Made by a program: the position numbers and the translations under genes. DNA of 37,440 bases, from the NCBI GenBank assembly GCA_003022125.1, contig PXQH01000011.1, forward strand, positions 1 through 37,440. The letters are read 5' to 3'. The notes under the pieces are model-generated. The model was given only the letters and a program-made list of their open reading frames with translations, was not told the DNA's origin and did not search any database. The stretch comes from Cyanobacteria bacterium QS_8_64_29 (GTDB lineage: Bacteria; Cyanobacteriota; Cyanobacteriia; Cyanobacteriales; Rubidibacteraceae). Numbering within the stretch: position 1 is the first letter of the stretch; the number at the start of each line of letters is the position of its first letter. This document shows positions 961-16,827 of this stretch, piece after piece.

Positions 961-1021
961 CCGGCAACAGGATTCGTTTAGGAGCGGGGCTGGCTGGATT
1001 CGAACCAGCGACCTAGCGCTT

Positions 1022-1858
1022 CAGATTGGTGCGGGTTTCCCCGCTCTCCGGACTATGCCTTCACCTTGGGCGCGATCGCGCCGTTAGGTGGCGACCGTTG
1101 CGTTGCGGGCAGGATCGGCTTTGTGGCGCAGGCTGGGAGGCAGCTGCGGCCGCAGCTCGGCTAGAAACTGCCGGCCGGCTTGGCTTCCCAGGCGCAGGCG
1201 GTACCCGCGCTTGCCCCGCGCGATTCCCCACTGCCAGCCCCAGGTGCGCGCGAAGTAAGCAGCGATGGTCTCGCACTCGGCACGCGAGGCCCCGACATGG
1301 AGAGAAACTTCCAGGCTGCGGATCCGACCGTTGCGGTACCGGAACGCGCGCGAGCCGCGATCCAGATACCACAGGACCAGGCCCTGACGGGTCAGATGCC
1401 GCAGAAACGGGCGCGCGATCGTGCGCGTCCCGCCCGGATACAGACGCTGCACCAGCACCCGGATCAGCGGCGTTTGCTTGGGTTGCAGGCGCAACCAGCG
1501 CTCGCCCTGCCGGGTTAGGTACATCTTGAGCGCAACCGGGCGCCCCCCGATGCGCTCCAGTAGCTGCCGCTGGAGCTCGGCATGCGCCCTATGGCGAGCG
1601 GGATGCAGCAGGTAGAAGTTATCGCCGTTGCGGCGAGCTCCCCCCAGCAACATGCCCGCCAAGATCCCGCGGCGCTCGCGTTTGGATGAGACTTCAAAGT
1701 CCATCGTTCGGCACTGCCCGCAACCAGTCTCTGCACCTTCCTTCCCCACAGCGGGAAAGGCTTGGCTCAAGATTGCCTTATCCGCATGGCGGACGTAGGG
1801 TCTCTTGAATTTGGCCGCATTCGACCCTGCGGTTTCCCGCAGGGCGCCCGATGCATTC
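1022..1858 (-). other. Group I intron (tRNA, IC3-like) in the anticodon loop of tRNA-Arg(CCU)
   Basis: The 5' splice site follows U36 and the last intron base is G at 1022 (the expected omega-G). P2 is a perfect 8-bp hairpin with a GAAA tetraloop (1825-1844). The Q strand at 1777-1759 reads GGCAATCTTGAGCCAAGCC, very close to the conserved Q region of cyanobacterial and plastid tRNA-Leu introns. Its TCTTG pairs with CAAGA of the P strand just upstream (P4). The R strand at 1737-1724 reads GGTGCAGAGACTGG and the S strand at 1059-1050 reads GGCATAGTCC, so GACT/AGTC form P7. P9 is GCGGG-GAAA-CCCGC (1044-1031). P3 can form between TGCGGCC, ahead of P4, and GGTTGCG, after R. The ORF fills the P8 region between R and S, leaving the core intact. 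Splicing activity itself is inferred. Confidence 0.93.
1084..1704 (-). CDS. Intron-encoded LAGLIDADG-family protein, catalytic residues apparently lost
   Basis: This 206-residue protein is coded inside the P8 region of the tRNA-Arg intron. It resembles LAGLIDADG homing endonucleases, which cut an intronless allele so the intron is copied in, and which sometimes act as splicing maturases. Two helix motifs are visible: GILAGMLLGGA near residues 13-23 and LVLWYLDRGS in the middle, the second followed by the basic strand-rich segment typical of the family. In active members the position before the final Gly of each motif is acidic. Here these positions read G (LLGGA) and R (YLDRG), so cleavage activity is doubtful. 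An open frame extends up to a TTG at 1770, but that would overlap the Q and R core strands. ATG 1704 lies just past R and is preferred, though its ribosome site is weak. It may be a decaying endonuclease or a maturase. The family call is from motif pattern only. Confidence 0.8.
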   Translation of the reverse strand: MDFEVSSKRERRGILAGMLLGGARRNGDNFYLLHPARHRAHAELQRQLLERIGGRPVALKMYLTRQGERWLRLQPKQTPLIRVLVQRLYPGGTRTIARPFLRHLTRQGLVLWYLDRGSRAFRYRNGRIRSLEVSLHVGASRAECETIAAYFARTWGWQWGIARGKRGYRLRLGSQAGRQFLAELRPQLPPSLRHKADPARNATVAT

Positions 1859-1912
1859 AGGAGGCGCTTGCTCTATCCAACTGAGCTACAGCCCCGTGCT
1901 GGCAGCGCCTCT

Positions 1913-16760: not shown

Positions 16761-16827
16761 AGCGGAGACACATGTTTCCGTTCACTCCTCACACCACACG
16801 CCGCCCGAACAGCGTTCGGGCGGTTTC
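16761..16827 (+). ncRNA. yfr1: Yfr1 small regulatory RNA
   Basis: Yfr1 is an abundant, short cyanobacterial trans-acting RNA that pairs with mRNAs (outer-membrane porins in marine strains) through an unpaired core. That core, ACTCCTCACACCAC, is present exactly at 16784-16797. It is flanked as in the family by a 5' hairpin (16763-16780, CGGAGACA / TGTTTCCG with one G-T pair) and a 3' terminator hairpin (16801-16823). The location just upstream of trxA is also typical of cyanobacteria. The transcript would be about 67 nt; ends are inferred from the -10 box and the terminator. Confidence 0.94.
16801..16823 (+). terminator. Rho-independent terminator of yfr1
   Basis: CCGCCCGAAC and GTTCGGGCGG make a perfect 10-bp stem with loop AGC, followed by TTTCCTATT. 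It is the 3' hairpin of Yfr1 and separates it from trxA. Confidence 0.9.

Follow-up and report, generated by a model that had tools for sequence, protein, structure and literature searches.

The tRNA-Arg(CCU) gene of Cyanobacteria bacterium QS_8_64_29 raises the question of what a LAGLIDADG protein encoded inside a tRNA intron does once its catalytic acids are gone. The gene lies in the window, that is, the whole stretch of DNA analysed here (37,440 nt), which is an entire contig of a genome of 2.22 Mb with a completeness of 99.95%.

The tRNA-Arg(CCU) gene is split by a group I intron

ARAGORN used without its intron mode detected no tRNA gene across the window. With the intron mode switched on, a tRNA-Arg(cct) gene was identified at 984-1895 of the minus strand, with an 837-nt intron in the anticodon loop inserted directly after U36. 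The gene consists of the following parts:

1859-1895, minus strand: 5' exon of tRNA-Arg(CCU), with the anticodon CCU (U36) as its end (ARAGORN -i)
1022-1858, minus strand: group I intron of 837 nt, the last base (1022) being the presumed omega-G (ARAGORN; RF00028, 31.1 bits)
984-1021, minus strand: 3' exon of tRNA-Arg(CCU), with 985 as the discriminator base and 984 one base past it (ARAGORN)

A tRNA-Arg(CCU) gene split by a group I intron had been proposed in a sequence-only reading of this DNA, and the proposal was borne out by ARAGORN in intron mode and by the RF00028 core match. An intact separate tRNA-Arg(CCU) gene, which the same reading had named as evidence against itself, was looked for across the genome and none was found. 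Of the 40 uninterrupted tRNA genes above the Rfam cut-off, those for Arg have the ARAGORN anticodons UCU, CCG and ACG, and CCU is absent among all 40. Apart from the split gene, no tRNA-Arg(CCU) gene was detected in this near-complete genome. A chance arrangement is excluded, because this organisation recurs at the same position in 41 genomes. tRNA-Arg(UCU) might decode AGG by wobble, and therefore a loss of splicing need not kill the cell.

The intron core

All 40 distinct introns with the ORF start with GAA and end with CTG, and the hallmarks of group I introns are present, namely the 5' splice-site U in a U.G pair of P1 and the terminal G of the intron. The core elements in the window are as follows:

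1857-1861, minus strand: 5' strand of P1, CCU and GA on the two sides of the splice site, with the U36.G wobble at the splice site; partner UCGGG at 1847-1851 (RNAalifold, 40 ORF-deleted introns)
1825-1844, minus strand: P2 hairpin (RNAalifold, 40 ORF-deleted introns)
1813-1818, minus strand: 5' strand of P3, GCGGCC, complementary to 1091-1096 (covariation across 40 distinct introns)
1766-1809, minus strand: P4-P5 region, with the 5' strand of P4 at 1804-1809 and its 3' strand at 1766-1771 (RNAalifold)
1740-1765, minus strand: P6 (RNAalifold)
1725-1729, minus strand: 5' strand of P7, GACUG; partner UAGUC at 1051-1055 (RNAalifold)
1062-1090, minus strand: P8, CACC (1087-1090) with GGUG (1062-1065), containing the ORF stop codon at 1084-1086 (alignment of 36 sequences)
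1051-1055, minus strand: 3' strand of P7, UAGUC (RNAalifold)
1031-1046, minus strand: P9 hairpin (RNAalifold)

In L095 and L096, P8 is formed by CAUC/GAUG.

The RF00028 model matched the core at 1710-1815 of the minus strand with 31.1 bits (E = 7.6e-6 for a stretch of 1,081 bases and 3.7e-6 for the whole genome), which covers model positions 53-154 of 253 and is below the gathering score of 50 bits. The sub-threshold score is probably due to the ORF, which splits the core, as ORF-less relatives at the same site exceeded the gathering score with the full model in 13 of 14 loci. The sequence-only reading had also named the absence of a group I core as a reason to abandon it; on this point the score of the window itself fell short of the cut-off, and the core was established through its ORF-less relatives. 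Among the other introns with the ORF, L079 and L191 reached 43.0 and 41.1 bits with the full model stretching across the ORF, and L067, L085 and L095 reached 46.5, 42.9 and 38.0 bits with the 3' part of the model placed before the end of the ORF. The Rfam group I model cannot represent the P3-P7 pseudoknot.

The Q strand, said to be near-identical to that of tRNA-Leu introns, does agree by eye, being AATCTTGAGCCAAGCC in the window intron vs AACCCTGAGCCAAGCC in the tRNA-Leu(UAA) intron of the same genome. The latter (L043, contig C50) is the second group I intron of this genome, 228 nt long according to ARAGORN and scoring 70.3 bits with RF00028; its host gene is read as tRNA-Leu(UAA), although ARAGORN gives Ser(aga).

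The ORF is located in the loop of an extra J7/3 stem

The placement of the ORF within the intron was resolved with the help of three RNA strands, two of which overlap its last codons:

1714-1724, minus strand: 5' strand of the J7/3 stem (P7.1-like), GUUGCGGGCAG, 11 bp with 1102-1112
1084-1704, minus strand: LAGLIDADG_2 ORF, 206 aa from the conserved ATG, with the frame open up to TTG at 1770 (PF03161, E = 1e-18)
1102-1112, minus strand: 3' strand of the J7/3 stem, CUGCCCGCAAC, within the last codons of the ORF, pairing with 1714-1724
1091-1096, minus strand: 3' strand of P3, GGUCGC, within the last codons of the ORF (covariation with the 5' strand of P3)

In all 40 distinct introns, the final codons of the ORF contain a hexamer complementary to the 5' strand of P3 (in L082, a second site ties); under a fixed placement rule, this holds for 39 of the 40. 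The strands covary as GUGGUC/GGCCAC, GUAGUC/GGCUAC, GCGGUC/GGCUGC or GGCCGC and GCAGUC/GGCUGC, the window having GCGGCC/GGUCGC. When the 3' strands were redealt among the 40 introns, 5.70 of 6 pairs were still formed (maximum 5.80) in comparison with 5.93 for the own strands, because G.U pairs were allowed. P8 starts directly after the 3' strand of P3 and contains the stop codon in the window and in most other introns. The ORF therefore lies between the 5' strand of P7 and the 3' strand of P3, in J7/3.

At one fixed offset in the 40 introns with the ORF, 6.7 of 7 positions of the J7/3 stem pair on average, with at least six pairs in 37 introns; the controls gave at most 5.98 of 7 with the 3' strands redealt 500 times and at most 3.5 with the strands slid by one or two bases. 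The ORF-less introns tested at the same offset (n = 38, with four unparsed rows left out) formed 5.13 of 7 pairs vs at most 5.00 after redealing, a weak margin due to the stem of family f7, which sits two bases further in. J7/3 of the ORF-less introns is either 4 nt long, mostly AGAC (17 of 57), or 37-84 nt long (40 of 57); these counts follow a by-eye reading of L257 and L254 (J7/3 AGAC), the automatic count being 15 and 42. A stem of at least seven pairs near the offsets of the ORF-bearing introns, such as GUUGUAG/CUACAAC, was found in 37 of the 40 with a long J7/3.

The ORF had been assigned to P8 from the sequence alone, and this assignment had to be given up: the ORF occupies the loop of a covarying J7/3 stem and only its stop codon touches P8. 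Location in P8 was ruled out by the covariation of the 3' strand of P3 in the last codons together with the J7/3 forms of the ORF-less introns. A 3' strand of P3 right after P7, as in the Rfam fit to the window, was also rejected, as it had no fixed place across the 40 introns. A J7/3 stem is not known as a feature of IC3 introns. The L043 intron lacks it by eye and is too small for an ORF of the LAGLIDADG_2 kind.

The encoded protein has a LAGLIDADG fold

The ORF product matched PF03161 (LAGLIDADG_2) with E = 1e-18, which substantiated the earlier claim of a LAGLIDADG ORF inside the intron; five further ORFs of the family matched with E = 1e-22 to 3e-35. The AlphaFold model (mean pLDDT 89.3, pTM 0.85) showed the LAGLIDADG fold over residues 6-198, and the PD-(D/E)XK fold was not found. 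The protein had been expected to differ in fold from the endonuclease of the Synechocystis tRNA-fMet intron, rightly so, that enzyme being described in the available part of PMC1995217 as PD-(D/E)XK. The closest solved folds were those of I-SceI (VIA Z 18.8, 186 residues, 2.7 A) and I-WcaI (18.6), followed by I-Tsp061I (15.3) and WhiA (14.2), with bI3 maturase (10.9) and I-AniI (10.7) lower. The Foldseek E-value of bI3 maturase to the predicted fold was 4.1e-6.

Searches with the protein gave no matches in NCBIfam or in the plasmid collection, only four weak matches by sequence in the PDB (E = 0.82-0.87), which we attribute to chance, and five records of 24.6-26.3% identity in the phage collection. 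The net positive charge of the protein is +27 (family median +16, control relatives +11), which does not single it out, since two outgroup proteins with both acids have +21 and +18. GC3 is 0.80 in the ORF and 0.66-0.76 in three neighbouring genes, so the ORF matches the high GC content of its host.

Catalytic acids are lost in most members of the family

In two-motif LAGLIDADG enzymes, the metal-binding acid is the residue preceding the last Gly of each motif. The window protein has Gly at this position of motif 1 and Arg in motif 2. Among the 40 distinct tRNA-Arg ORFs, both acids are present in two (L085 and L087) and neither in 26; Asp or Glu occurs in motif 1 of 12 ORFs and Asp in motif 2 of four. 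As a control, 83 other PF03161 relatives were compared (103 loci, 80 of them on viral contigs, giving 104 aligned stretches from which motif gaps and duplicates were removed), and 82 of them have Asp at both positions. Of the 206 columns, none varies more than the acid position of motif 1, with 13 different residues; that of motif 2 ranks 26th. Neither acid was found in any of the 12 intact rows of family f46 or in any of the 12 rows comprising f13, f15 and the window, and the ORF tree requires at least four state changes per acid. With its catalytic acids gone, the protein is unlike an ordinary homing endonuclease. Some members, L085 and L087, may still cut, as they keep both acids.

Another acid might have taken over, leaving a nickase or cutter. 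The candidate is an Asp one residue before the usual acid of motif 2, which is invariant in all 40 distinct ORFs. However, in each of the 25 control rows listed, the same Asp is found next to the usual acid (MDDG, LDDG) and is therefore not a replacement, and motif 1 of the window protein (LAGMLLGGA) is devoid of any acid, so that activity retained through a shifted acid appears extremely unlikely.

Distribution of the intron and its ORF among cyanobacteria

A search with the single protein in 388 genomes of the class found 23 genomes at E <= 0.001. These were the window's own genome, three with close relatives (41-45% identity), all four in tRNA-Arg(CCU) introns, and 19 with distant relatives (E = 1e-11 to 5e-4), beside which a tRNA was not found. 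The distant relatives (L048-L066) belong to other cyanobacteria, and 18 of the 19 have open frames of 280-413 aa; at 10 of these loci, no group I intron was found above the Rfam cut-off, a weak test which ORF-bearing introns fail as well. The first search for relatives, with the single protein against genome contigs, found none; the alignment search yielded 14, all but one of them (13) located in an intron of tRNA-Arg(CCU).

An alignment of the four proteins matched 49 of 388 genomes of the order at E <= 1e-12, and the loci of all 49 were inspected. In 41 of the 388 genomes, the ORF is carried by an intron of tRNA-Arg(CCU), 832-969 nt in length; as G407 and G422 share one sequence, 40 of these introns are distinct. 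The remaining eight comprise three tRNA-Asn(GUU) introns, two introns read in ribonucleotide reductase genes and three loci without a tRNA found. In the three former loci (L202, L203 and L204 from G460, G405 and G433), tRNA-Asn(GUU) is split by an 898-nt intron encoding a distant relative of the same ORF, with Asp kept in motif 2 and Lys, Glu and Lys, respectively, in motif 1. By pattern, an intact tRNA-Asn arm was found in none of these three genomes, and their tRNA-Arg(CCU) arm is intact. The two group I introns read as lying in ribonucleotide reductase genes (L205 in G529 and L206 in G480) carry the nearest outgroup ORFs, in which both acids are kept; in the vicinity of L205, there are also another group I intron and one of group II.

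According to a model of the 3' part of the intron, the trnR(CCU) intron is present in about 202 of the 388 order genomes, including all 41 with the ORF. This number results from 271 rows at E <= 1e-4 minus 69 rows at E > 1e-8, which were taken as 3' halves of intact genes; no rows fell between 1e-8 and 1e-17. Of these genomes, 98 were inspected (41 with the ORF and 57 without it) and all had the intron in tRNA-Arg(CCU). Given about 202 introns and 41 with the ORF, intron genomes without a detected ORF form the majority. ARAGORN found an intron of 204-310 nt in 57 of 60 ORF-less loci examined, always in tRNA-Arg(CCU), and none in L259, L268 and L276. In the 388-genome class sample, 31 genomes matched the intron 3' model at E <= 1e-12, 12 of them from outside the order (G071, G095, G103, G113, G115, G141, G197, G207, G243, G291, G294 and G356). 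The sequence-only reading had depicted an unusual LAGLIDADG intron; the intron and its ORF were seen correctly, but the picture was incomplete, the intron being widespread and the catalytic acids gone.

Descent of the ORF and the case for mobility

On the ORF tree, the host family labels change nine times, which is the minimum for ten families (shuffled mean 27.3); descent with the host was judged from these family labels. Only 15 of 40 inner branches were starred, f46 as one group had a support of 50/79, and f13 and f52 were each broken once. The window was nested inside f13 (96/96*), which we take to be Spirulina and relatives from intron sequences identical to named records. A horizontal gain of the window intron from f13 may be considered a candidate, but the AU test did not reject f13 as a clade excluding the window (p = 0.279), and the window row forms a long branch of odd composition.

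A classical mobile intron, spread by a LAGLIDADG homing endonuclease that is still active and cleaves trnR(CCU) alleles lacking the intron, would suit the PF03161 match, the folds of I-SceI and I-WcaI as nearest neighbours and the two ORFs with both acids. Targets would also exist. The pattern of the tRNA-Arg(CCU) arm is present in 185 of 388 genomes, a few of them through other tRNAs with CTTCTAA arms, and most listed matches are intact CCU arms; by the same pattern, an intact arm was found in none of the 41 genomes with the ORF. An uninterrupted arm occurs in seven of eight sampled relatives from the window's family f1. However, the window protein has Gly and Arg in place of the acids, at least one acid is missing in 38 of 40 distinct ORFs and the ORF tree is grouped by host family, not scrambled, which makes continued homing very unlikely.

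The ORF is maintained by purifying selection

The frame is open in 38 of the 40 distinct ORFs. The median dN/dS was 0.199 for ORFs without either acid (40 pairs, range 0.08-0.44) and 0.163 for those with at least one acid (74 pairs, range 0.10-0.36), as obtained from NG86 counts for pairs with dS of 0.1-1.5, after removal of both acid columns and of the tail that takes part in the RNA structure. Six single acid-less pairs gave Fisher p of 5e-5 to 8e-20. The window ORF enters none of the pairs, as its relatives are too distant.

The intron is kept with a broken ORF in three genomes (G414, G407 and G422; two distinct sequences), and these ORFs (L199, L200 and L201) were excluded from the tree and from dN/dS. 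In both L199 and L200/L201, the break occurs just after the KSFKKK codons, with a run of ten A in L199, and this place may be a mutation hot spot or a slippage site.

The lost acids, the two distinct broken ORFs and the many ORF-less alleles would fit a dead homing endonuclease gene, functionless and in the course of being lost. Such decay is very improbable in view of dN/dS of about 0.2 among acid-less ORFs, the 38 open frames and the long branches within wholly acid-less groups (the 12 f46 rows and the 12 rows of f13, f15 and the window).

Acid loss under purifying selection suits any binding role, also one at the DNA level without cutting, for instance that of a regulator of its own gene or promoter similar to WhiA, a LAGLIDADG-fold transcription factor with one of the nearest folds (VIA Z 14.2). 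However, the gene is intronic in 41 of 41 genomes and its tail holds the 3' strand of P3, whereas a regulator need not stay in the intron; a DNA-level role is rather unlikely.

A putative maturase of a bacterial tRNA intron

The reading favoured here is that a former homing endonuclease has lost its acids under purifying selection and is now probably the maturase of its bacterial tRNA intron. It is suggested by the loss of both acids in a protein still under selection, the gene of which is intronic in all 41 genomes. The protein most likely lacks cleavage activity, binds RNA and helps splicing. Judging from the intron anatomy, self-excision would proceed in the ordinary two steps: P1 would pair the anticodon CCU with GGG through the U.G wobble, guanosine would attack after U36 and the exons would then be joined at the omega-G. 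The LAGLIDADG protein encoded in the loop of the extra J7/3 stem probably descends from homing endonucleases; its acids would have been lost while purifying selection continued, apparently as the gene was passed down within entire cyanobacterial families. As a putative tRNA-intron maturase, it would bind its own intron and help it to fold. The strongest counter-evidence is provided by the ORF-less introns in many families together with the three genomes with a broken ORF. The ORF-less introns are of nearly the same build, and the ribozyme therefore evidently manages without the protein there.

The conserved start of the ORF in the window is ATG at 1702-1704, giving 206 residues. At this place, ATGGACT is present in 29 of the 40 distinct introns and ATAGACT in 10, from f52 and f6 (L067, L071-L073, L077, L078, L085, L091, L094 and L199); in L196, the start is out of frame. 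AAGGA is found just upstream in all 10 AUA introns, and in L077, L094 and L199, ATG, GTG and TTG are absent between the last in-frame stop and AUA, so AUA seems to serve as the start codon in some lineages. In 19 of the 40 distinct introns, the window not being among them, a Shine-Dalgarno-like motif was detected within or next to the 5' strand of the J7/3 stem.

Plastid matK, located in the trnK intron, is a tRNA-intron protein that no longer has functions in mobility and is retained because of its role in splicing. It differs from the window protein in being derived from a reverse transcriptase and residing in a group II intron, in contrast to a LAGLIDADG protein of a group I intron. A dedicated maturase in which translation and splicing oppose each other, hence a group I counterpart of matK made from a converted endonuclease, is conceivable, if somewhat doubtful. 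A translating ribosome would prevent the ribozyme from folding, and the ribozyme, once folded, would make the start inaccessible, with the ribosome-binding site by the J7/3 stem, the 3' strand of P3 in the last codons and the stop codon usually in P8.

Relation to known introns

Group I introns without an ORF occur in tRNA-Arg(CCU) genes of alpha-proteobacteria. These, as well as the cyanobacterial and plastid tRNA-Leu(UAA) introns, share with the window intron the anticodon-loop position and the same kind of core, and differ from it in the absence of an ORF. The fungal mitochondrial maturases bI3, bI4 and I-AniI are intron-encoded proteins with a LAGLIDADG fold as in the window, but their hosts are mitochondrial protein-coding genes, their structural similarity to the window protein is lower than that of I-SceI and the maturase of the window is putative. 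For some fungal mitochondrial LAGLIDADG proteins, only maturase activity is described in the available part of PMC3943268.

A protein-encoding group I intron in a cyanobacterial tRNA gene is likewise that of Synechocystis PCC 6803 tRNA-fMet, which is 655 nt long and encodes a protein of 150 aa (available part of PMC1995217). Its product, I-Ssp6803I, is a PD-(D/E)XK endonuclease in tRNA-fMet, in contrast to the acid-less LAGLIDADG_2 protein in tRNA-Arg(CCU). In the compilation of endonuclease-bearing bacterial group I introns in that part of PMC1995217, the Synechocystis tRNA-fMet intron is the one in a tRNA gene and LAGLIDADG proteins are in rRNA genes. The latter are the 23S rRNA introns of cyanobacteria and Thermotoga, also bacterial group I introns with LAGLIDADG ORFs (same source), whose single-motif proteins in rRNA genes differ from the two-motif protein in a tRNA gene found here.

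According to the available part of PMC5733544, tRNA-Leu and tRNA-fMet had been the only cyanobacterial tRNAs with reported introns; introns of 22-49 nt in Arg(ACG), Gly and Lys tRNAs are added there. A database paper from 2025 has no cyanobacterial mention in its main text (PMC11835236). In the open-access literature, no cyanobacterial tRNA-Arg(CCU) intron or LAGLIDADG gene of such an intron was found among the matches listed; an earlier mention in subscription papers is possible.

Little is known about factors that help bacterial group I introns to splice; a LAGLIDADG one in Thermotoga is named in the available part of PMC3984707. At one tRNA site, the cyanobacteria offer a natural series of introns without the ORF, with both, one or no acid and with a broken ORF. 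The step from a selfish endonuclease to a splicing factor is thus directly testable in these bacteria, some of which are in culture.

Genomic neighbourhood

The proteins flanking the window's tRNA-Arg(CCU), which has an alpha/beta hydrolase gene as a neighbour, gave no tblastn match in seven f1 loci or in five loci with the ORF. Next to tRNA-Arg(CCU) in L045, L046, L047 and L293 lies what we take to be a YdcF-like gene, and in L045, L047 and L293, presumably also a tocopherol-cyclase-like gene. Elsewhere in the window, the cyanobacterial small RNA Yfr1 was detected at 16762-16825 of the plus strand with 59.4 bits.
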